A stretch of 64,000 bases of DNA from Beijerinckiaceae bacterium (GTDB lineage Bacteria; Pseudomonadota; Alphaproteobacteria; Rhizobiales; Beijerinckiaceae). Under the pieces are notes generated by a model. That model had not been told where the DNA came from and did no database searches. It saw only the letters and a list, made by a program, of their open reading frames with translations. Numbering within the stretch: the stretch's first letter is position 1; the number at the start of each line of letters is the position of its first letter. Position numbers and translations under genes: made by a program. This document shows, piece after piece, positions 15,896-61,732 of this stretch. The stretch spans positions 1 through 64,000 of the forward strand of contig JAIELD010000023.1 of the NCBI GenBank assembly GCA_019753285.1. The letters run 5' to 3'.

Positions 15896-16648
15896 TTAAT
15901 CGATTTTCGCGAGGATCGGGTTCGGCGTCAGCACAAGCGCCTGATAGGTGCGAAAGTCCGCAGTCATCGGCCAGGTGGCCTGCGGAAAAGCCTCTCGTAA
16001 CGCCGCATCGTAAAACGGAACCATTTCCGTTCGGCACAGCACGAACTTCGGTGCGGCAACGATGTCCTCGCGATCGATGATCGCCACGACGCGCATGTCG
16101 GAATTCGCATCGAGAAACGTCTGCACCGTGAGGATGAGCGTCGGGTAGCCAGGGTGCAGCATATCGTCGAGCACGATGAGCCCGCGCTCGGCTGTCACAT
16201 CATGGGCGAGCTTGATGTCGCGGCTGAGATGATCGTCGGTGTGCTCGCCATCGACATGGATGAAGCGCAGCGGGCCGTTGGTGCGGGCGAGGATGTCGTC
16301 AGGCTTAAGGGTGCGGCTGTCGATCTTCAGCGTTTCAAAGCCATCGTTTGAAAGGCCATGCAGCGCGGCGTTGGCGAGAAACCGGCCCATGATGCCGTCA
16401 TCCGGCCAATCGAAACTGTCGATGCCGAGAAGCGGCTCGCCCTTGCGCATCGCCTTGGCGAGCGCGATGAAGAAGCGGCCCTCGAACGTGCCGATCTCGG
16501 CCGCACCTCCCGAAATGCCCGCCTCGCTCTGGATGGCGAGCAGCCTCGCGCAGATGGCGGCGGCGAAGCGGGACGACATGCCCCGCACGTCATGGAAGCC
16601 GTGGTCAAGATAGCGATCGACGGCGGGGAGGCCTGAATGGAACGTCAT
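15896..16648 (-). CDS. Class I SAM-dependent methyltransferase-like protein
   Basis: A 250-residue protein of the Methyltransferase_24 type. [21 protein letters not shown] (about 47-67) resembles the SAM-binding motif I, GIDSFDW the motif II acidic region, and [34 protein letters not shown] the later core typical of CmcI/macrocin-like O-methyltransferases. No metal site or substrate can be assigned with confidence. It is divergent from uvrC with 168 bp between the starts. Confidence 0.75.
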
Positions 16649-32462: not shown

Positions 32463-33230
32463 CTATTTCGAGACGATGTCCGGCGTCTGCCAGACAAGAT
32501 GCTGGCCTGAATCGACCGCTATCATCTGACCTGTCACCGCTTCGGCGGAAGCGAGGTAAAGCACCGCTTCCGCGATGGCTTCGGGCGAGGAAGCGCGCTG
32601 CAGCAGGGTCTGGCTCGCCTCCGATTGGAAGCCGTCCAGGCCTTCGTGGACATTGGCGAGGGTCGGGCCGGGGCCGATCCCGTTGACGCGGATGCGGGGC
32701 GCAAGCGCCTGCGCCAGCGTCTTCGTGGCCGTCCAGAGCGCGGATTTGCTGAGCATGTAGGAGAAGAACTGCGGATTGAGCTTCAGGACGCGTTGATCGA
32801 TGATGTTGACGATCGCGCCCCGCATATCCGCGGGCAGTTCGCGATCGAACTCCTGCGCGAGGATCAACGGCGCCTGAAGGTTGACGGCGAAATGGCGCTG
32901 GAGCGTGCCGACCTCGAATGTCTGCGCACGGTCGTCCTCGAAGATAGAGGCGTTGTTGACGAGCAGGGTCAGCGGACCCAAAGCCGCCTTGGCGGCATGG
33001 ACGAGGCCGCGGACCTGATCGGCGTCCGCAAGATCGGCCTGCACAACGGCTGCCCGGCCGCCACCCGCGACGAGCGATCCCATCAACATCTCGGCATCGC
33101 GCCGCGACTGATTGCAATGAAGCGCGACTGCGTAGCCTGCCTTGGACAGGTGCCTTGCGATCACGCTGCCGATGCGCTTGCCCGCGCCGGTGACGAGCGC
33201 CGCGCCCTTGGTTTTTTCTTCTGCGCTCAT
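32463..33230 (-). CDS. Short-chain dehydrogenase, pteridine-reductase-like
   Basis: A 255-residue Rossmann-fold oxidoreductase with ALVTGAGKRIGSVIARHL, LLVNNASIFEDD and YMLSK. The usual catalytic Ser is replaced by Asp: D145 (NIIDQRV) with Y158 and K162, the Asp-Tyr-Lys arrangement of trypanosomatid PTR1 and related FolM-type enzymes. HCNQSRRDA after the second strand suggests NADPH specificity. A role in pterin reduction is therefore plausible and would suit PhhA, which needs a reduced pterin, but this is inference. The start overlaps the upstream glycosyltransferase stop by 4 bp. Confidence 0.88.
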   Translation of the reverse strand: MSAEEKTKGAALVTGAGKRIGSVIARHLSKAGYAVALHCNQSRRDAEMLMGSLVAGGGRAAVVQADLADADQVRGLVHAAKAALGPLTLLVNNASIFEDDRAQTFEVGTLQRHFAVNLQAPLILAQEFDRELPADMRGAIVNIIDQRVLKLNPQFFSYMLSKSALWTATKTLAQALAPRIRVNGIGPGPTLANVHEGLDGFQSEASQTLLQRASSPEAIAEAVLYLASAEAVTGQMIAVDSGQHLVWQTPDIVSK

Positions 33231-34012
33231 GATTTTTCCCTGTCGCGTGTCATCAGCCGACGTTCGGCATCCTTGGCGACCCTCAGCCAGCGGTAAAAGG
33301 CGAAATTCATCGCCGTGATGAAGCCATAGCGCCCGCGAAGAGCATGGCGGCGGAAGAGATACGCTTTCAGGAAGGCGGCAGGAAACTCGACGAAAAGCCG
33401 CGCCGCCCCGAAATGCTTGCCGCGTGCCGCAAGATCGTCGACCTGCTGATCGGTATAGGCGTTGAGCTTGGCGATCTGGTCTCCGATGGAGCGGATCGAA
33501 AAATGATGGATGAGGCCTTCAAGCGCGCCGACCCTGGCGTCTGCGCTCAATTCGACCCGATCGTGCACCGGCGACTTCGAATATCGGCCGATCGATTTGC
33601 GATAGAGGCGCACCGGCTTAAGGGCGTAAGCGAGCGCGTGCGGTTCTTCTTCGCCCGGGAAGATCTCCGCGATGGCGATCGTGTAGGCGTCTGAGCCAGG
33701 CTCCTCTTGCGCGAACAGCGCGGCGATTTCGGCGGCGAGCGCCGGCGTGACGATTTCGTCCGCGTCGATATTAAGAAGCCAATCATGTCTGCATTGCTCT
33801 TCGGCGAAGCGCTTTTGCGGGCCGTAACCAGGCCAGTCATTGTGGATGATGCGGGCGCCGTGGCGGCGTGCCACATCCTGCGTGCCATCGGTCGAGCCTG
33901 AATCCACCACAACGATATCGTCGCTGAGCGCGCTCACCGCATCGAGCGCCCGGGCGATCCGATCCGCTTCGTTTTTGGCGATGATGAAGACGGAGAGTGG
34001 CGGTTTCGACAT
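33227..34012 (-). CDS. Family 2 glycosyltransferase
   Basis: A 261-residue GT-A enzyme: SVFIIAKNEADRIARALDAV, VVVDSGSTDGTQDVA and the divalent-metal DxD-type NIDADEIVT, followed by an acceptor region and a basic C-terminus. It resembles the KdtX/WaaE/LgtF group that adds sugars to the lipopolysaccharide inner core; the real acceptor is unknown. It precedes the SDR gene with a 4-bp overlap, so both come from one transcript. Confidence 0.9.
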   Translation of the reverse strand: MSKPPLSVFIIAKNEADRIARALDAVSALSDDIVVVDSGSTDGTQDVARRHGARIIHNDWPGYGPQKRFAEEQCRHDWLLNIDADEIVTPALAAEIAALFAQEEPGSDAYTIAIAEIFPGEEEPHALAYALKPVRLYRKSIGRYSKSPVHDRVELSADARVGALEGLIHHFSIRSIGDQIAKLNAYTDQQVDDLAARGKHFGAARLFVEFPAAFLKAYLFRRHALRGRYGFITAMNFAFYRWLRVAKDAERRLMTRDREKS

Positions 34013-34277
34013 CGGTTACTTGTGCAGTGACAGGAGATCGTCCGATTTCCTCGCATGAACCTCAAGGCAAGAGCAAGGTGGCCAAGAGCGCCACGCCTTA
34101 GTGACATGAAACGCCGGCCGGAGGCATCGTTAGCAGTTCATTAGTCTTAATCGGTCTTTGCGCCTTTTAATTACTTTTTAGTCTCGTTGAACCGTTTGGT
34201 TTTTCTTGTTGTTTACCATCAGATATAACAGCTCCAGAGATCAACGCCGCCCGAAATCCGGCAGGAGTTCTTTTGTC

Positions 34278-34910
34278 ATGCGTAAGGGTACAGTGTCGTT
34301 TTTGCTGCTGGTGGGCGCCATGGGTGTGCAGGGCGCGCATGCGGGAGATTTGCCGCGGCGCACCGCGCCCTCATCGCCCTATGTCGAGAACAGCTATGCG
34401 CCCCAGAAATCCTGGCAGGGATGCTATGCTGGCGCACATGCCGGCGGCGGCTTTGGCGGAGCGTCGCGCGCCAACACCTCGGGCGCGCTCATCGGCGGCC
34501 ATGGTGGCTGCAATGTGCAGCAAGGTCGCTTCGTCGCGGGTCTCGAGGGCGATGCGAGCTACACCGGCGTCAGCAATCGCAACGCTGCGAACAAGTTTCG
34601 CCAGAAATGGCTTGGCAGCGTGCGTGGCCGCGCCGGCTATCTGGTCGACGAAAAGATCCTCGCCTACGGCACGGTCGGCCTCGGCGTCGGCTCGGGCCAA
34701 TACACGGATGCGTCTGGCCGCAGCGACGACACGCAGGTCGGATGGGTTGCAGGCGCAGGCGTCGAATACAAGGTGACCGACAACATCTCAGCCCGCGCCG
34801 AATATCTGCATTACGATCTCGGTCGCGGCAAATACCGCACGATCGCCGGTCCCACCAATGTTTACACGACCACAAACGTGCTCAGGGTTGGCGGTAGCTA
34901 CCACTTCTGA
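34278..34910 (+). CDS. Outer membrane beta-barrel protein (Omp25/Omp31-like)
   Basis: A 210-residue precursor with a signal peptide ending at HAG and a mature end starting DLPRRTAP, the hallmark of small rhizobial porins. The rest is an eight-stranded-barrel-like series of alternating residues, including GRFVAGLEGDASYTGV, WLGSVRGRAGYLVDEKILAYGTVGLGVG and the C-terminal aromatic VGGSYHF. AGGAG lies about 10 nt before ATG 34278. A TATAAC -10-like box is at 34224-34229. A strong terminator follows. C-terminal Phe supports outer membrane insertion. Confidence 0.88.
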   Translation: MRKGTVSFLLLVGAMGVQGAHAGDLPRRTAPSSPYVENSYAPQKSWQGCYAGAHAGGGFGGASRANTSGALIGGHGGCNVQQGRFVAGLEGDASYTGVSNRNAANKFRQKWLGSVRGRAGYLVDEKILAYGTVGLGVGSGQYTDASGRSDDTQVGWVAGAGVEYKVTDNISARAEYLHYDLGRGKYRTIAGPTNVYTTTNVLRVGGSYHF

Positions 34911-34930
34911 TCGGGCGAAAAACCTTGGAT

Positions 34931-34958
34931 AAAAGCCGGCTTTCGGGCCGGCTTTTTT
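34931..34958 (+). terminator. Rho-independent terminator after the first porin gene
   Basis: AAAAGCCGGC, a 6-nt loop, then GCCGGCTTTTTT: a 10-bp perfect stem ending in a T run, 20 bp after the stop codon. Confidence 0.92.
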
Positions 34959-35429
34959 GTGCGCGGGTTCCCACAGTGCGCTGAACAAATTTCCATAAGG
35001 CATAAAACTCAAAAAACGCGGCTGAACTGGAAAAAGAAGAGCAGCGTTTTTCCAAAGCGAGGCGAAAGCCCCATTTTAGTCGACTGAAATTGCATATTTG
35101 CCGCAAAACCAGCGCTGATGCTTAACAAAACGTCTAGAAATTATATTCAATTTCTAGACATTAAACGAAATTATATGCGTCGTTTTCGTCTGAAAGCAAA
35201 ATTTCTGCAGCGCGTTATCATCAGGCTCATATTTCTGCAAAACGAGGGCCCAGATTCCGCCACAGTCGCCGATTGGGGTGTGTCGGGCGGGATACAGCCT
35301 TAACGAAGGCTCAAGCGTATAGAGAGCATCAGCAAGCACGGCCTCGAGCAATTTTGAGAGTGCGGCCTGGAACCAAGACTGAAACGGTGCGTTCGTGTTT
35401 TTGACGCACTACGTCCAACGGAGAGTTAA
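34959..35429. other. AT-rich spacer upstream of the second porin gene
   Basis: No convincing gene. By hand count 35101-35220 is 37% GC, far below the flanking genes. It contains the perfect inverted repeat at 35132-35159 and a second, weaker ACGAAA/TTTCGT pair (35165-35189). A 61-codon frame at 35118 has no ribosome-binding site. The long untranslated lead and the structure would suit a regulatory RNA or a complex promoter for the porin. Confidence 0.5.
35132..35159. promoter_or_regulatory. Perfect 11-bp inverted repeat
   Basis: GTCTAGAAATT, spacer ATATTC, AATTTCTAGAC. It can be a 28-bp protein-binding site or an RNA hairpin; no T run follows on either strand, so it is not a classical terminator. 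It lies about 270 bp upstream of the porin ATG. Confidence 0.55.
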
Positions 35430-36152
35430 ATGAAAAAGATCCTTCTCGCAGGTGTGGCTCTCGCCGCTCTGTCAACGGTTGCCACGGCAGCCGACCTCCC
35501 GCGCAAGACCGCGCCGATCCAGCCGATCGTGTATGCCCCCGTCTTCAGCTGGACCGGCTTCTACGTCGGTGGCAACGCCGGCTATGCATTCGGCACGAAC
35601 AGCTCGCGCAACACGTTCAACGGTCTCGCACCGGTCGGCGTGAACATCTTCGGTGATCCCGATGGCTTCGCCGGCGGTGGCCAGATCGGCTATAACTACC
35701 AGTTCGCCAACAACTTCGTCGTCGGTCTCGAAGCCGATATCCAGGGGACCACGCTGGAATCGCCTCGCGCTGCTGTGTTCGGCACGACCTCGAAGAGCTC
35801 GGTCGACTATTTCGGCACGGTTCGCGCTCGCGCTGGTTATGCCTTCTCAGGCACGAACTCGATGCTTGACCGCACGCTGCTTTATGTCACCGGCGGCTTT
35901 GCCTATGGCGACAACACGCTCGGCATCGCTGGCTACACCAGCCAGAGCAAGACGCAGTTCGGTTACGCAGCTGGCGCAGGCATCGAATACGCCTTCACCA
36001 ACAACTGGACCGTGAAGCTCGAAGGCCTCTACGTCGACCTCGGTCGCGATACGTACACCTTCCGCAACGCCAACCCGGTCGTTCCTGCGATCACGACCCG
36101 CAACCAGACCGAGTTCGCTGTCGTTCGCGCCGGCCTGAACTACAAGTTCTAA
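35430..36152 (+). CDS. Outer membrane beta-barrel porin (Omp25/Omp31-like)
   Basis: A 240-residue precursor: signal peptide ending ATAA, mature start DLPRKTAP, then WTGFYVGGNAGYAFG, GGQIGYNYQFANNFVVGLEADIQG, VRARAGYAFS, GYAAGAGIEYAFTNNWTVKLEGLYVDLG and a terminal Phe (VRAGLNYKF). These are the repeated strands of the porin-family small barrel. GGAGAG is 7 nt before the ATG. Codon use and its dedicated terminator suggest high expression. It is a paralogue of the gene at 34278. Confidence 0.93.
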   Translation: MKKILLAGVALAALSTVATAADLPRKTAPIQPIVYAPVFSWTGFYVGGNAGYAFGTNSSRNTFNGLAPVGVNIFGDPDGFAGGGQIGYNYQFANNFVVGLEADIQGTTLESPRAAVFGTTSKSSVDYFGTVRARAGYAFSGTNSMLDRTLLYVTGGFAYGDNTLGIAGYTSQSKTQFGYAAGAGIEYAFTNNWTVKLEGLYVDLGRDTYTFRNANPVVPAITTRNQTEFAVVRAGLNYKF

Positions 36153-52146: not shown

Positions 52147-54948
52147 TCACCGCGGCCCGCCGCGCCTGAACTTCGGTTTCTGCCCGGCGTAGCCTTGCGT
52201 CGAGCGCGGCGACGGACGAGCTGCGTAAGGCTGCTGCACCGGCACCGGCTGGTCGGTGAAGCCCATATCGTCCAGCGAGGGTTTGTGGGCGCGGGTCGGC
52301 GGCAGATTGGCGGCAGCGCCGTACTTGCCCTCTCCGGCATAGCTGCCGGCCTTTGACGCCACCTTGCCCTGACGCACGGTCGGATCGTCGACCACGGCGA
52401 GCGCCGTCGAGCGCAAGCGCTTCAACTCGTCGCGCAGGCGGGCTGCCTCCTCGAAGTTGAGGTCGGCGGCGGCGTCGCGCATCCGCTTTTCGAGATCGCC
52501 GATCACGGCCTCGAAGTTGTGGCCGATCGTTGCCGCCTCCTCTGACATCCCCTTGTCGACCGTCACATGGTCGCGCTCATAGACGCTGTTCATGATGTCG
52601 GCGATGCCGCGCCGGACGCTTTCGGGCGTGATGTTGTTCTCGACATTATAGGCGTGCTGCTTCTCGCGGCGGCGATTGGTCTCCGCAATGGCGCGCTCCA
52701 TCGAGCCCGTCATCTGGTCGGCATAGAGGATGACCCGGCCATCCACGTTGCGCGCGGCGCGGCCGATCGTCTGGATCAGCGCAGTTTCCGAGCGCAGGAA
52801 GCCTTCCTTGTCGGCATCGAGAATGGCGACGAGGCCGCATTCGGGAATGTCGAGCCCCTCGCGCAGCAGGTTGATGCCGATCAGCACGTCGAACGCGCCG
52901 AGGCGCAGATCGCGGATGATCTCGATGCGCTCCAATGTGTCCACGTCCGAGTGCATGTAGCGCACCCGGACATTCTGCTCGTGGAAATATTCGGTGAGGT
53001 CCTCGGCCATGCGCTTGGTGAGCGTCGTCACGAGCGTGCGGTAGCCGGCCTGCGCCACGGCGCGGACCTCGCCCAGCAGATCGTCGACCTGGCTGCGGGC
53101 AGGGCGGATGAAGACCTCAGGGTCTATGAGGCCGGTCGGGCGGATGACCTGCTCGCTGAAGACGCCGCCAGTCTGGTTCATCTCCCATTTGCCAGGCGTC
53201 GCCGAGACATGCACGGTCTGCGGGCGCATGGCCTCCCATTCCTCGAAGCGCATCGGCCGGTTGTCGAGGCAGGAGGGCAGGCGGAAGCCGAACTCGGCCA
53301 AGGTGGCCTTGCGCTTGAAGTCGCCGCGATACATGCCGCCGATCTGCGGCACGGTGACGTGGCTTTCATCGGTGAAGACGATCGCGTTGTCCGGCAGGTA
53401 TTCGAACAGCGTCGGCGGCGGCTCACCCGGCTTGCGGCCGGTCAGATAGCGCGAGTAATTCTCGATGCCCTGGCATGAGCCGGTCGCCTCCAGCATTTCG
53501 AGGTCGAACACGGTGCGCTGTTCGAGACGCTGCGCCTCGATCAGCCGGCCCATGCGGTTCAATTCCTCGAGCCGCCATTTCAGCTCTTCCTTGATGCCCT
53601 TGATCGCTTGCTGCAGGGTTGGCCGCGGCGTCACGTAATGGCTGTTGGCGTAGACCTTCACCATCTGGAGTTCGGCCTGCTTGTTTCCGGTCAGCGGATC
53701 GAACTCGGTGATGCTTTCGATCTCGTCGCCGAACAGCGAGACGCGCCACGCCCGGTCCTCGTAATGGGCGGGGAAGATTTCGATGACATCGCCACGCACG
53801 CGGAAGGTGCCACGCGTGAAGTCGCCCAACGAGCGCTTGTATTGCAGCGCCACGAGATCGGCGATGAGCTGGCGCTGGTCGACCTTCTCGCCGAGGCTGA
53901 TGGAGAAGGTCATGGCCGTGTAGGTCTCGACCGAGCCGATGCCGTAGATGCAGGAGACGGAGGCGACGATCACGACATCGTCGCGCTCCATCAGCGCGCG
54001 CGTCGCCGCATGGCGCATGCGGTCGATCTGTTCGTTGATCGAGCTTTCCTTGGCGATGTAGGTGTCCGAGCGCGGCACATAGGCTTCCGGCTGGTAATAA
54101 TCGTAATAAGAGACGAAATATTCCACCGCATTGTCTGGAAAGAAGCTCTTGAATTCGCTGTAAAGCTGCGCCGCCAGCGTCTTGTTCGGCGCGAGGATCA
54201 CCGCCGGGCGCTGCGTCTGCTGGATGATCTGCGCCATGGTGAAGGTCTTGCCGGAGCCGGTGACGCCGAGCAGCACCTGATCCCGCTCATGCGCCTTGAT
54301 GCCTTCGACGAGGCTGGCGATCGCCGTCGGCTGGTCGCCCTTGGGCTCAAAAGGCGCTTGCAGCTTGAATTTGATGCCGCCTTCCGACTTCTCCGGACGC
54401 GCGGGACGGTGCGGCGTCCACTCGATTTTGCCTTTAAAGCGCGGGTCGCCCTCCTGAAGCAGCTTCTGCAGCGCTTCCTGCGTCGCGTTGACTCCAGCGG
54501 TCGAGGCGAGTTCGAGGTCGTCATCCTCGGCATCGTCATCGGGAATTTCTGGCGCGACGTTGCCCTGGAGAACGCGGGTTGGCTTGGAAGAAAGCAATTC
54601 CTCGCGCGTGAAAGAGCCCTTGGCGCTGCCGAACTTTCGGGCTCCGGTGGGCGTGGCGGGCACCTCGTCCATGCTGCCGTGACGATCGCGTGGCGGCTTG
54701 ATGCGCGAGCCGGGCTGGCCTTTGGTTTCTGGCGCCGCAGGCGGCCTCGATTGAAGGCCGAGGCTCTCGACGAGTTTGGCGTCGAGCATCTCCACAGGTC
54801 CAGCGTCGAAGGATGCCTGCGGCGCCTCCGAAAAGCCGGATTGCGCCTGCGGAAGACCGGGATTCAGCAATTTTGCGAGGTGCTGGTCGAGGGGGATCAG
54901 CGGCAGTTTGCCGGCCTTGCCGGCTGTCGATTTGGGAGCACGCGTCAT
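52147..54948 (-). CDS. uvrB: Excinuclease ABC subunit B, N-terminally extended
   Basis: Damage-verifying helicase of excision repair. The UvrB core begins near [21 protein letters not shown] with Walker [19 protein letters not shown], the beta-hairpin and the helicase motifs [17 protein letters not shown] and [13 protein letters not shown], and ends with a UVR motif ([33 protein letters not shown]) plus a low-complexity tail. Ahead of the core lies about 195 residues of Pro/Ser/Asp-rich sequence. I use ATG 54948 (933 residues); ATG 54975 or 54999 and GTG 55026 are in-frame alternatives, none with a clear Shine-Dalgarno. Confidence 0.93.
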
Positions 54949-55144: not shown

Positions 55145-55729
55145 ATGTCTGTTCGCTCAAACGACTTCCAACTTGTCGGCATCTCCGAATTCGTCTCCAA
55201 GACCCAGACCGGGATGATTGTCTGGTTCACCGGCCTTTCCGGGGCTGGTAAGACCACGATCGCGCTGAAAATCAAGGAGAGGCTCGATGCCCTCAACCTG
55301 CGGTGCTGCCTTCTCGACGGCGATGACCTTCGCAGGGGTCTCAACAGCGATCTTGGATATTCGGATGAGGATCGCGTCGAAAACATGCGACGGACCGCCG
55401 AGGTGGCGGCCTTGATGGCGCGCGCGGGCCTGATCACGATCAGCAGCCTGATTTCGCCGTTCGCCAAGGAGCGCCGCATTGCTCGGGTCGTTGCGGGCGA
55501 CCTTCCCTTTTTCGAGGTGTTCATCGACGCGCCGCTGGCGCTGTGCGAGCAGCGCGACCCCAAGGGGCTTTACAAGCGCGCGCGCCAGGGCTCGATCAAG
55601 GACTTCACCGGCATTGGTTCGGCCTACGAACCGCCGGTTTCGCCTGATCTCCGCCTTGATACCGGGATGTCGAGCGCCGACGATCTTGCGGCCAAGGTGG
55701 TGGAACTCATCTTGGCGAAACAGGTCTAG
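55145..55729 (+). CDS. cysC: Adenylyl-sulfate (APS) kinase
   Basis: Phosphorylates APS to PAPS, the universal sulfate donor. The 194-residue protein has Walker A GLSGAGKTT (30-38), LDGDDLRRGLNSDLGYSDEDRVENMRR, ISPFAKERRIAR and FIDAPLALCEQRDPKGLYKRAR, the complete APS kinase signature. ATG 55145 is used; GTG 55118 would add nine residues. The leader is AT-rich. No sulfate adenylyltransferase (cysND) is adjacent. The next gene, 64 bp on, is a sulfotransferase, so PAPS is probably made here for that enzyme. Confidence 0.93.
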   Translation: MSVRSNDFQLVGISEFVSKTQTGMIVWFTGLSGAGKTTIALKIKERLDALNLRCCLLDGDDLRRGLNSDLGYSDEDRVENMRRTAEVAALMARAGLITISSLISPFAKERRIARVVAGDLPFFEVFIDAPLALCEQRDPKGLYKRARQGSIKDFTGIGSAYEPPVSPDLRLDTGMSSADDLAAKVVELILAKQV

Positions 55730-55793
55730 TGCAGCATGGTCGTAGCCCGGCTCCAGTCGACCGCCTGTCTTGCAGGGCTTTGTGGTCTTTCAA

Positions 55794-57464
55794 ATGTCTG
55801 ACCCGGTCCTGTCGCGAGTGACGCGCCGAATAGGGCTGAACAGATCAGGCGTCGATCTCTTGAAAGCCTATATCGACGAGCGTCTGGAGGCCATGCGCAG
55901 CGAATTGGCGCAACTGGTGGCTGTGCACGCCTCCAGCCGCGATGTGCTTGAACCCATCAACGCCGGCGTGGCGGAACTGGCTCGGGATTTGAGGCATCAC
56001 GCGCAGAAGGTCGATGAAGTCGAGCATTCGCTGAAGACCATCATTGCAGAGGCGTTCGCCAATGCGGCGTCCGCGCGAGCCTGGGATCGGGAACAACTTG
56101 ACGCGATCGGCAGCAAGGTCACCCAGATCGAGTTCGATCAACGAGAGATGGCCGGCAGTGTCGTCTCTACGCTCGAACATCTGAAGTCCGGGCGCGATTG
56201 GGATCGGCAGCTCCTCGAGGCCGTCGCCGTTCGCGTCACGGAAATCTTTTCTCAACTCTCCGAACAGTTTCAGGCCGTTCGTGCCATCGACGAAGCGGTC
56301 GCGGCCAAAATGCTTCCAGCGCTCGATGTAGCCGCCTCTGCCTGGACTTGGGATCGAGAGCCGATCGATGCGATTGCAGCGCGATTGACCGAGGTCGAAG
56401 CGGCACAGCGTTCATTTGCAGGGAGTGTTCTTTCAACGCTCGACCATCTGAAGTCGGGCCGCGAGTGGGATCGAAGCCAACTCGACGCGATCGGATCGGC
56501 GCTGACGCATGGTCAGGACAGGCTGGCGGACATTGCCGACAAGCTTGAGCGTCTGACGCTCCAGATCGCCACAGATCGAGTTGCCGGCGGGTCCGCAGTG
56601 GCGGCGGTCAGCTTTCCCGGCATATTCATCGTCGGGCATGCGCGCTCGGGGACGAGCATCTTGCTGGATGCACTCAATTCCTCGAAGGCCATCTTCATGT
56701 TCGGTGAAGCGAACTTTCATGAGACCCATCCCCGCACCGATTTTCGTCAATGGTACAACAGCATGCACGAAGGCTTCGGGAACTTGCGAGGAAAGGGCAC
56801 ATATTGCCCGGCTCTGCTAGGCGACGAGGCGAGCGGCTGGGACTATCTTCAGCAGATGAGCAAGTCGTTTCGACGCGTGGGAGACAAAGTCGCTTTCAGG
56901 GACGAGACGCTTGGTTACAATTTTCAACGTTTCTTCGACTTTCAAACACGTCATTTCTTCGATTCGTTTCACGTATGTATCATTCGACATCCGTATATGA
57001 CGTTGAAATCCAGCTTTCAGATGTTTGATCAAACAGATCATGTCATCTATGTCAGGTCATACATCAAAACGATACTGCAGATACTCGAACTCTATCAGAC
57101 TATGCCGAATGTCCCGATCCTGATTCATGAAATGATCGATGAAAGCACATTCAATTTGTTAAGCCAGTGGATGGATATAGATCTCTCTCACGGTATAAAA
57201 TTTTACGAAAAAGCCTATCAGGTTTTGCCTGCTGACGATTGGCAGTTGCCGGAACTATCCGATGATCATCATGCCATGCTTCGCGAAACGTGGGACGGCC
57301 TTCTAGCCATCCATGACCAATCGTCGCTGCAACTGGTGCCGGGTGGAGCCGTCAACGCGTACCATTGGCGATTGAGGGCGTTATGCAGCGAGTTGGAAAA
57401 GCCGATCCAACCTCGTGGCAGCCAGAAGAAAAGCACAAAGTCGCGTTCGTCGCGGTCAAGTTAA
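55794..57464 (+). CDS. Sulfotransferase with an internally repeated coiled-coil N-terminal domain
   Basis: A 556-residue protein. Residues about 1-265 are helical and carry a duplication of about 90 residues: WDR at 97, 136, 187 and 226 with AGSV-STL-HLKSGR between (118-135 and 208-223). The C-terminal domain is a PAPS-dependent sulfotransferase: GHARSGTSILLDAL (281-294) is the 5'-phosphosulfate loop and IIRHPYMTLKSSF (397-409) the 3'-phosphate segment. A basic Ser/Lys tail ends it. The catalytic part is AT-rich for this genome (37% GC in 56941-57000 by hand count), suggesting horizontal origin. The acceptor is unknown; a polysaccharide or lipid is plausible. Confidence 0.85.
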   Translation: MSDPVLSRVTRRIGLNRSGVDLLKAYIDERLEAMRSELAQLVAVHASSRDVLEPINAGVAELARDLRHHAQKVDEVEHSLKTIIAEAFANAASARAWDREQLDAIGSKVTQIEFDQREMAGSVVSTLEHLKSGRDWDRQLLEAVAVRVTEIFSQLSEQFQAVRAIDEAVAAKMLPALDVAASAWTWDREPIDAIAARLTEVEAAQRSFAGSVLSTLDHLKSGREWDRSQLDAIGSALTHGQDRLADIADKLERLTLQIATDRVAGGSAVAAVSFPGIFIVGHARSGTSILLDALNSSKAIFMFGEANFHETHPRTDFRQWYNSMHEGFGNLRGKGTYCPALLGDEASGWDYLQQMSKSFRRVGDKVAFRDETLGYNFQRFFDFQTRHFFDSFHVCIIRHPYMTLKSSFQMFDQTDHVIYVRSYIKTILQILELYQTMPNVPILIHEMIDESTFNLLSQWMDIDLSHGIKFYEKAYQVLPADDWQLPELSDDHHAMLRETWDGLLAIHDQSSLQLVPGGAVNAYHWRLRALCSELEKPIQPRGSQKKSTKSRSSRSS

Positions 57465-57895
57465 GCGTTTCCTACGGCCCTCGGTGTCCCGTCATCTTCC
57501 AGCGTGTCGCCATGCGCCGCGAGGCCTTCGTCGAGCAGGTCGCCAAGATTGGGAATGCCGAGCAGGTAGCTGGCGGTATCGCCGCCCGAGGCCTCATCGC
57601 GCTCGCGCGCCAGAGCGACGGCGTCATCCCACTCCTCGATGTCGAAATCGCCGCGACCGAGATAGACGAGCGCGATGACATCCGCGCGCTCGTCGTCGTT
57701 CATGCCGTCGATCATGCCACGAAATTCGATCTCGGTCGCATCCTCGCCCTCGTCCGCTTCGCTGGAGGTGAGCACGTCGGTCTCACCGTCGTCGATCGGA
57801 TTGGAGCCGGAATCGGGGTCGGTGTCGGCTTCCTTCACGTCGATCCTGCGAGCCTCGACGATGAGCGCCCGAATCTTGTCTATCGCGATGTCCAT
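57461..57895 (-). CDS. DUF3775 domain protein
   Basis: A 144-residue acidic protein. FRGMIDGMNDDERADVIALVYLGRGDFDIEEWDDAVALARER and TASYLLGIPNLGDLLDEGLAAHGDTLE form the DUF3775 domain, which is of unknown function and common in Hyphomicrobiales. It overlaps the end of the sulfotransferase gene by 4 bp in convergent orientation and is divergent from the helicase gene, 144 bp apart. Confidence 0.87.
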   Translation of the reverse strand: MDIAIDKIRALIVEARRIDVKEADTDPDSGSNPIDDGETDVLTSSEADEGEDATEIEFRGMIDGMNDDERADVIALVYLGRGDFDIEEWDDAVALARERDEASGGDTASYLLGIPNLGDLLDEGLAAHGDTLEDDGTPRAVGNA

Positions 57896-59851: not shown

Positions 59852-61732
59852 TCACTCGGCCGCGACGGCGCGCTGGTCGGGCAGAAAGCCGCCTGACTGC
59901 CGCCGCCAGAGATCGGCGTAGAGGCCGCCCTTCTTGAGCAGGCTCGCATGGCTCCCTTCCTCGACGATCCGTCCGCGATCGAGCACCACCAGCCGGTCCA
60001 TGATCTGCAAGGTCGAGAGGCGATGGGCGATGGCGATTACGGTCTTCCCGTCCATCAGGCTGGAGAGGCTGTCCTGGATCGCCGCCTCGATCTCGCTGTC
60101 AAGCGCGGAGGTCGCTTCGTCGAGCACGAGGATCGGCGCATTTTTCAAAATGACGCGGGCGATGGCGATGCGCTGCCGCTGACCGCCGGAGAGCTTGACG
60201 CCGCGTTCGCCGACATGCGCGTCGTAGCCGCGCCGTCCGAAGCTGTCCTCGAGCTGCATGATGAAATCATGCGCCGCCGCCTCGCGGGCCGCCGCGATCA
60301 TCTCCTCCTCGCTGGCCGAGCGTCTTCCATAGATGATGTTCTCGCGGATCGAGCGGTGCAGCAGCGAGGTGTCCTGCGTCACGACAGAAATGGCATCTCG
60401 CAGGCTTTCCTGCGTCACGCCGCGAATGTCTTCGCCGTCGATGCTGATGCGGCCGCCCTCGACGTCGTGGAAGCGCAAGAGCAGACTGGTCAGCGTGGTT
60501 TTTCCCGCGCCTGAGCGACCGACCAGCCCGACCTTTTCGCCCGGCTGGATAGCAAGCGAGAAGCGGTCGATCACCGGGCCTTGCGCCACGCCGCCGCGGT
60601 TGTCGGATCGATCCTTGCGGCCATAGCTGAACGACACGCTCTCGAAGTCGATCCGCCCCCTGTCGACCTGCAGCTCCGGAGTGCCGGCCTCGTCCTGCAT
60701 CTGGAGGGGTTGAGCGATCGAGAGCATGCTTTCCTGCACGAGACCGATGTTCTCGAAGATGCCCTGCACCTCATAGGCGACCCAGCCCGACATCGCGATG
60801 ATCTGGCTCGTCAGCGGCAGAACCATCGCGAGCGTGCCGATCTCGACCATGGCGTTCTGCCAGAGGATCACGGCGAGCGCGCCTGTCGTCACCAGCAGCA
60901 TCGCATTGAGAAAATTGAGCAGCGCGATGAAGGTCGTGCTGAGCCGCTGCTGCGCGAGGAAGCTGCCGTTGAGCTCGGCCATGCTTTCGCGCACGTGACG
61001 GTCCTCGTCGCGCACTTTTGCAAACAGTTTGACGGTGAGGATGTTCGTGTAGCTGTCGACGACCCGACCGGTGACGGCCGAGCGCTTCTCCGATGCAGCG
61101 CGTGCGGCGTCGCGCTGACGCGGGATCATCCAGATCAGCAGCGTGACGTAGAGCGCGAACCAGACGACCATGGGGACGGCGAGCCGCCAGTCTTGCGCAA
61201 GAAGCAGTCCGACCGCGCCGAGCCCGTAGACGAGGATGTGCAGCACCGAGCGAATGAGCGCGATGACGGTCTCGCGCAGGGCGTGACCAGCCTGCATCAC
61301 CCGGTTAGCGATGCGGCCGGCAAAATCGCTCTGGAAGAAACCAACCGATTGACGCACGACGTGCCAATGGCTCTGCCAGCGGATCATGGTGTTCATGTTG
61401 GAGACGAGCGACTGGTTGGTGATCAGCCGCTGCAGCAGAATCGCGCCGGGCCGCGCGATGAGGACGACGAACACCATCGTCGCGAGCGTCGGGCCGGCGG
61501 TCTCCAGCAGCGTCTCACGCGGGGTTTTCGACAGGATGCCCACGAGCTGGCCGATGAAGAACGGCACCGTCGTCTCGAGCAGCGCGACGACGACGCTGAC
61601 GAGCACGAAGGCGAGCAGAACCCATTTCACCTGGCGGGCGAAATACCAGTAGAAGCGGAGGAGGCTGGGCGGCGGGCTGTCGGCCGGCGGCTGCTTCAGC
61701 CCGTCGACGAGGGTCTCGAAAAAACGATACAT
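59852..61732 (-). CDS. ABC exporter, fused permease/ATPase (MsbA-like half transporter)
   Basis: A 626-residue type I exporter: six-helix membrane domain (about 35-335) and nucleotide-binding domain (about 365-610) with Walker A GLVGRSGAGKTT, signature [16 protein letters not shown], Walker B ILVLDEATSALD and the switch His in IAIAHRLSTL. The first 25 residues are hydrophilic and Pro-rich. It works as a homodimer or with another half; the substrate (lipid, peptide or drug) cannot be read. It is divergent from the DUF1800 gene. Confidence 0.95.
   Translation of the reverse strand: MYRFFETLVDGLKQPPADSPPPSLLRFYWYFARQVKWVLLAFVLVSVVVALLETTVPFFIGQLVGILSKTPRETLLETAGPTLATMVFVVLIARPGAILLQRLITNQSLVSNMNTMIRWQSHWHVVRQSVGFFQSDFAGRIANRVMQAGHALRETVIALIRSVLHILVYGLGAVGLLLAQDWRLAVPMVVWFALYVTLLIWMIPRQRDAARAASEKRSAVTGRVVDSYTNILTVKLFAKVRDEDRHVRESMAELNGSFLAQQRLSTTFIALLNFLNAMLLVTTGALAVILWQNAMVEIGTLAMVLPLTSQIIAMSGWVAYEVQGIFENIGLVQESMLSIAQPLQMQDEAGTPELQVDRGRIDFESVSFSYGRKDRSDNRGGVAQGPVIDRFSLAIQPGEKVGLVGRSGAGKTTLTSLLLRFHDVEGGRISIDGEDIRGVTQESLRDAISVVTQDTSLLHRSIRENIIYGRRSASEEEMIAAAREAAAHDFIMQLEDSFGRRGYDAHVGERGVKLSGGQRQRIAIARVILKNAPILVLDEATSALDSEIEAAIQDSLSSLMDGKTVIAIAHRLSTLQIMDRLVVLDRGRIVEEGSHASLLKKGGLYADLWRRQSGGFLPDQRAVAAE

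Follow-up and report, generated by a model that had tools for sequence, protein, structure and literature searches.

Several described bacterial systems join the synthesis of PAPS to a sulfotransferase. NodPQ and NodH combine the two in the sulfation of rhizobial Nod factors. In Xanthomonas, PAPS synthesis by RaxP and RaxQ serves the sulfotransferase RaxST (available excerpt of PMC4216712), and the sulfated capsule locus of Vibrio sp. KMM 8419 contains second copies of cysC, cysN and cysD together with sulfotransferase genes (available excerpt of PMC11641403). The same excerpt regards PAPS genes and sulfotransferase genes in one place as a hallmark of sulfated polysaccharide loci. The locus described here, from a Beijerinckiaceae bacterium, is likewise made up of a gene for PAPS synthesis, cysC, and a gene for a putative sulfotransferase. 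A sequence-only reading had called it the best candidate in the window for an undescribed sulfation system, which is an overstatement because nodPQ/nodH, raxPQ/raxST and the Vibrio capsule locus were already known.

Gene order and surroundings of the module

The window, i.e. the whole stretch of 64,000 nucleotides that was analysed, is contig C7 of an assembly of 3.47 Mb which is 82% complete. The open reading frames, the family scores and the coordinates (Table 1) agree with the earlier description of a cysC gene followed after 64 bp by a PAPS-type sulfotransferase gene; the gap amounts to 64 bp if counted from the ATG of the second gene and to 40 bp if counted from its TTG. The two genes may be co-transcribed. 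Between 54900 and 57900, two promoter-like sites (1.2 expected from shuffles) and five terminator-like sites (2.3 expected) were found, four of the latter within cysC and one in the intergenic gap at 55764-55776. The stop codons of the sulfotransferase gene and of the DUF3775 gene on the other strand overlap tail to tail at 57461-57464 and, therefore, the module extends right up to its neighbour. The surrounding genes are uvrB, the DUF3775 gene, a helicase gene and an ABC exporter-type gene (59852-61732, PF00664 + PF00005) on the opposite strand, 2.4 kb from the module; no polysaccharide cluster is among them. The nearest glycosyltransferase gene noted in the window is located at 33230-34012, and no glycan gene adjoins the module.

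Table 1 Positions of the module, its sequence features and the flanking genes in the window
Feature	Position	Strand	Basis and remarks
cysC, stand-alone APS kinase	55145..55729 (ATG)	+	alternative GTG start 55118; TIGR00455 219.8 bits (cut-off 138.7), PF01583 203.5 bits (cut-off 21.1), motifs
Repeat-bearing putative PAPS sulfotransferase	55794..57464 (ATG, 556 aa)	+	alternative TTG start 55770 (564 aa); PF13469 30.1 bits
Duplication copy 1, approx. residues 100-155 (564-aa frame), WDR 105 and 144	56067..56234	+	DNA copy 56151-56226
Duplication copy 2, approx. residues 189-244 (564-aa frame), WDR 194 and 233	56334..56501	+	DNA copy 56418-56493
5'-phosphosulfate loop GHARSGTS, residues 289-296	56634..56657	+	alignments; RXG loop as in PF13469/NodH (excerpt of PMC11625862)
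3'-phosphate site R406...S414	56985..57011	+	alignment of five proteins
Lowest-GC 300-bp stretch of the window (39%), within the catalytic domain	56901..57200	.	GC scan
uvrB, left flank, outside the module	52147..54948 (chosen start 54948)	-	UvrB equivalog 1069.9 bits; 77% identity to uvrB of G039
DUF3775 gene, right flank, outside the module	57461..57895	-	PF12616 84.4 bits

The APS kinase and the supply of PAPS

CysC scored above the cut-offs of both APS kinase models (Table 1) and contains the motifs GLSGAGKT (P-loop), DGD, RVENMR, ISPF, RDPKGLY and FTG, which are common to the other APS kinases aligned. It is the sole APS kinase match in the 82%-complete assembly, and its neighbour is the sole match to PF13469. 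The earlier statement that the pair occurs without cysND is correct for the locus, but contig C17 of this assembly has a DUF934 gene, cysH, cysD and cysN in a row, unlinked to the module. CysN (C17, 2492-4165, plus strand) is C-terminally fused to DUF2061 (PF09834; 69.3 bits, cut-off 23.1) and has no CysC domain. DUF2061 occupies the place which the APS kinase domain has in the corresponding protein of Bosea lupini (see below); an open-access paper that pairs CysN with DUF2061 was not found.

CysH of this assembly carries the paired cysteines CC...CxxC, a pattern that marks APS reductases. It reached 231-232 bits with the APS-reductase model, just under the cut-off of 235.3, and 136.7-138 bits with the PAPS-reductase model, far under the cut-off of 254.2. 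If CysH used PAPS, cysC would serve assimilation and its place beside the sulfotransferase gene would be incidental. This is what one would expect from the sole CysH model that was passed, PRK02090 (243.5 bits, cut-off 154), which is named phosphoadenylyl-sulfate reductase, and CysNC fusions are indeed frequent in the family. Nevertheless, we consider an assimilatory role of cysC highly improbable, given the cysteines and the far higher score with the APS-reductase model, the separation of cysC from cysHDN, its position next to the only PF13469 gene and the fact that the Bosea homologue also adjoins PAPS synthesis genes. Since the only APS kinase match is encoded in the window, CysH has the cysteines of an APS reductase and the CysN-DUF2061 fusion lacks a CysC domain, PAPS appears to have no evident assimilatory use in this genome.

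APS kinases are frequent in the family: in a sample of 50 genomes, which included the genome studied here and four more that had been picked because of their sulfotransferase, 29 had a match at E < 1e-50 and 37 at E <= 0.001, mostly without a close homologue of the window sulfotransferase alongside. Open frames of at least 600 residues, as expected for CysNC, contain 29 of the 32 strong matches; the shorter frames are those of the window (205 residues), of G007 (293) and of G038 (181), the last of which starts 20 bases from a contig end.

The sulfotransferase domain and its donor site

Residues 283-426 of the 564-aa frame matched PF13469 (Sulfotransfer_3), for which the gathering cut-off is 27 bits. 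Its homologues in Bosea lupini and in the genomes G844 and G749 scored 28.1, 27.8 and 44.8 bits, the one in G124 stayed below the cut-off with 16.4 bits. Both the loop R292-S293-G294 and the site R406...S414 are present in the alignment, and the loss of PAPS-binding residues that the sequence-only reading had named as grounds against itself was not found. We assign the GHARSGTS loop and R406...S414 to the two sites at which PAPS sulfotransferases bind their donor. The arginine of the 3'-phosphate site was found in all five aligned proteins and the serine in four of them; the protein of G749 is the one that lacks both the loop glycine and this serine. PF13469 also detects NodH, by way of an RXG motif (excerpt of PMC11625862).

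A phmmer search with the single window protein retrieved no sulfotransferase from the PDB at E <= 10. With a profile built from five homologues, solved sulfotransferases ranked first: the CurM sulfotransferase had an E-value of 3.7e-5, tyrosylprotein sulfotransferases followed from 3.8e-5, and the entry named LPS sulfotransferase NodH was matched with 0.11. The second gene thus probably encodes a PAPS-dependent sulfotransferase, as judged from its family and its donor-site residues.

Homologues and the candidate acceptor

The sole close homologue found is a protein of 394 aa from Bosea lupini (NZ_FOAN01000003.1), which is 44-45% identical to the window sulfotransferase over approximately 300 residues, the last repeat motif included. 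Its gene begins 155 bp after cysD-cysNC. This recurrence of the pairing, together with the single APS kinase found in the assembly, bears out the earlier statement that donor synthesis and transfer are encoded together, and cysC and the sulfotransferase gene are likely a functional pair. With the genome studied here included, matches at E <= 1e-5 were obtained in 3 of 199 genomes of the family, 2 of 397 of the order and 3 of 385 of the class; at E <= 1e-4, 18 of 398 genomes of a phylum sample gave a match, again including the own genome, and the 22 matches outside it scored at most 34 bits. The four samples overlap. Plasmids yielded nothing by tblastn, neither with the full-length protein (E 1e-5) nor with residues 91-274 (E 0.01), and the same was true for phages searched with residues 211-564. 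Scans of contigs, which rely on short conserved peptide stretches and so may overlook relatives, gave 37 and 5 pattern matches in viral contigs and 9 in genome contigs with the full protein, none of them a relative; with an alignment, one of 34 pattern matches in genome contigs was a relative, that of Bosea lupini.

Three more distant homologues with 22-23% identity are located near glycan genes. The one in G844 is accompanied by sugar epimerases, a UDP-GlcNAc 2-epimerase, TylF, a glycosyltransferase and a GHMP kinase, the one in G124 by a glycosyltransferase fusion, and the one in G749 by WcbI and FkbH_N with transposase-type ORFs in between. A Methyltransf_24 (PF13578) protein is encoded in the window as well (15899-16648, minus strand); the gene beside the homologue in G844 is of the TylF/Methyltransf_24 type. 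The G844 homologue (L017:9933-11159) has C-terminal TPR-like matches, all below the cut-off, in place of an N-terminal repeat arm, and the family may, therefore, join different repeat arms to one catalytic domain.

The neighbourhoods of the distant homologues favour a surface glycan or glycolipid as the likeliest acceptor; since no glycan gene adjoins the module itself, we infer this from relatives at 22-23% identity. We regard it as probable that CysC and the sulfotransferase constitute a two-gene sulfation module directed at a hydroxyl group of such a glycan or glycolipid. ATP sulfurylase, formed by CysD and the CysN-DUF2061 fusion of contig C17, would make APS, the window CysC would phosphorylate APS to PAPS, and the adjacent enzyme would move the sulfuryl group from PAPS to the acceptor hydroxyl. 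Alternatively, a small molecule or a peptide could be sulfated, as by RaxST, with the arm as a docking or oligomerisation device. The best PDB profile matches, CurM and the tyrosylprotein sulfotransferases, and the lack of adjoining glycan genes are in line with this, but the distant homologues lie near glycan genes and an unsystematic look recognised no peptide-precursor gene beside the module, so that we consider an acceptor of this kind unlikely.

The N-terminal repeats and a probable helical arm

Residues 1-274 of the window sulfotransferase have no Pfam match above cut-off; the first 275 residues contain no cysteine and four prolines. The four WDR motifs of the TTG-started frame (Table 1) are found at 97, 136, 186 and 225 in the ATG-started frame. 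The earlier reading had the first pair right but placed the second, at 187 and 226, one residue too high. It had also described a duplication of about 90 residues; an offset of 89 residues was indeed found, but only some 50-60 residues are alike, with 60% identity over 50 and 57% over 60 residues. When this half was shuffled 100 times, the best 60-residue pair reached 21% identity on average and 27% at most. At the DNA level, a stretch of 76 nt is 75% identical between the copies, which indicates that the duplication is old enough for divergence.

The N-terminal half shows a hydrophobic periodicity of 3.56, a strength reached by none of 300 shuffles, and in a full-length AlphaFold2 model built from two rows (window and Bosea; pLDDT 38) long helices are interrupted near the WDR motifs. 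Based on the periodicity and the helices of this low-confidence model, the N-terminal half is likely a helical, coiled-coil-like arm. A model of the catalytic part from the same two rows had a pLDDT of 47.5. Searches with the poor model were treated as uninformative: of the 817 Foldseek matches at E <= 10 none reached E <= 0.001, of the 1000 chains compared by VIA-align 39 had Z >= 5 and none Z >= 8, and there was no sulfotransferase among the best 50 rows of either. In the Bosea homologue, which has one WDR-like motif (SGRAADREQLDAVGSMLT) where the window protein has four WDR motifs, the periodicity is not significant (48 of 300 shuffles equally strong). The helical repeats of the window protein would probably form an elongated, oligomeric arm, by which the catalytic domain could be held next to the membrane or a glycan-assembly complex. 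In the PDB and the open-access literature, these repeats were not found on any characterised sulfotransferase, in agreement with the sequence-only reading, which had not recognised the fusion from NodH, NoeE or other bacterial sulfotransferases, and a described sulfotransferase with a coiled-coil arm was not found in the open-access literature either.

The catalytic domain lies beyond the repeat arm, and this layout raises the question of whether the enzyme terminates a growing glycan. The arm, held in the membrane through its N-terminus, would then fix the distance between the catalytic domain and the polymerase, and the repeat number would set the chain length, as does the coiled coil of WbdD. 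The excerpt of PMC11231755 describes coiled-coil rulers that carry the terminating enzyme distally and determine glycan size by their length, and a variable repeat number as well as the strongly amphipathic N-terminus of the Bosea protein (moment 0.75 over residues 8-25) would suit such a device. On the other hand, the N-terminus of the window protein is less amphipathic (0.23-0.47 over the first 12 positions), the model at pLDDT 38 did not confirm a coiled coil, no glycan polymerase adjoins the module and nothing marks the ABC exporter-type gene, 2.4 kb off on the other strand, as a polysaccharide exporter. Further, the rulers in that excerpt carry kinase, methyltransferase or glycosyltransferase domains, and the word sulfotransferase is absent from that paper. 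We consider a length-setting arm quite unlikely. The more specific version, in which chains end by being sulfated and the count of WDR-type repeats, four here and one in Bosea lupini, would set the length of a sulfate-capped surface polysaccharide served by its own dedicated APS kinase, is very doubtful.

Origin of the module

In G039, the only other genome of the genus that was compared, uvrB and the DUF3775 gene are adjacent, 111 bp apart, whereas 2.5 kb with cysC and the sulfotransferase gene lie between the same two genes in the genome studied here. G039 gave no match to the window sulfotransferase and no APS kinase above cut-off (a partial match of 19.7 versus 21.1 bits). The module was, therefore, either gained here or lost in G039; the comparison of two genomes fits either course, and the narrow distribution favours gain. 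The sequence-only reading had pointed to transfer because of an AT-rich segment of the catalytic region with 37% GC. Its measurement holds: the GC content of 56941-57000 is 36.7%, and the segment belongs to the 300-bp stretch with the least GC when the window is scanned in 50-bp steps (mean 62.6%, SD 4.4; Table 1). The catalytic part as a whole has a GC content of 0.487, compared to 0.641 for uvrB and 0.632 for the helicase gene. As evidence of transfer, however, the low GC content is weak since the catalytic part of the Bosea gene has 0.437 within a locus of 0.632 and the feature is, thus, common to both homologues; acquisition is plausible given the absence of the module from G039 at a conserved junction and the lower GC content. 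A second low-GC stretch was seen at 34851-35400 (42-48%), where it overlaps the end of an OMP_b-brl gene (34206-34910) and the spacer that precedes a second one (35430-36152).

That the pair was gained and is now without function would agree with its absence from G039 and its deviating GC content. Both frames are open and the residues conserved in the family are kept, and we regard a loss of function as extremely improbable.

The window CysC is 52% identical to the Bosea APS kinase over 182 residues (BLAST). In a tree of 32 APS kinase sequences it did not join the Bosea sequence and sat on a long branch, its place being unsure. A joint transfer of cysC and the sulfotransferase gene from a Bosea-like donor is, on this tree, unsupported. 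A tRNA-borne island was rejected as well; neither the window nor 20 kb around the Bosea cluster contains a tRNA. An integrase gene of the phage type, whose product has an Arm DNA-binding domain (L009:4691-6043), lies approximately 3.7 kb upstream of the cysD-cysNC-sulfotransferase cluster of Bosea; no integrase was recognised beside the window module.

Comparison with known systems

If the acceptor is a surface polysaccharide, the organism would add to the few genera with sulfated polysaccharides, six of which are reported in the excerpt of PMC11625862. In the module, an orphan sulfotransferase is linked to the source of its donor, and assimilation in this genome seemingly needs no PAPS. The window protein and its Bosea counterpart are two natural homologues which differ mainly in the length of the repeat arm, and with this pair one can ask directly whether a sulfotransferase is able to end glycan chains and to set their length by its arm.

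The pairing of PAPS synthesis with a sulfotransferase is already well known, and the novelty lies in the repeat-bearing N-terminal arm; the interest of the find is in its architecture more than in any new pathway. We know of no repeat arm on NodH, and an unsystematic look recognised no nod genes here. In Xanthomonas, raxST forms an operon with the secretion genes raxA and raxB (excerpt of PMC4216712), whereas no such operon was recognised at the window module, and the Vibrio locus belongs to a polysaccharide cluster of 80 genes (excerpt of PMC11641403), whereas the window pair stands alone. The cluster of Bosea lupini shares with the window a sulfotransferase gene directly downstream of PAPS synthesis genes and a low-GC catalytic part, but cysD and cysN belong to it, the APS kinase there is part of a fusion and the sulfotransferase has 394 aa with a single WDR-like motif. 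WbdD and other coiled-coil glycan terminators resemble the window protein in that a long arm ends in a glycan-modifying domain (excerpts of PMC3482155 and PMC11231755); in the window protein this domain is a sulfotransferase, the arm is N-terminal and putatively coiled-coil, and a linked polymerase is absent.
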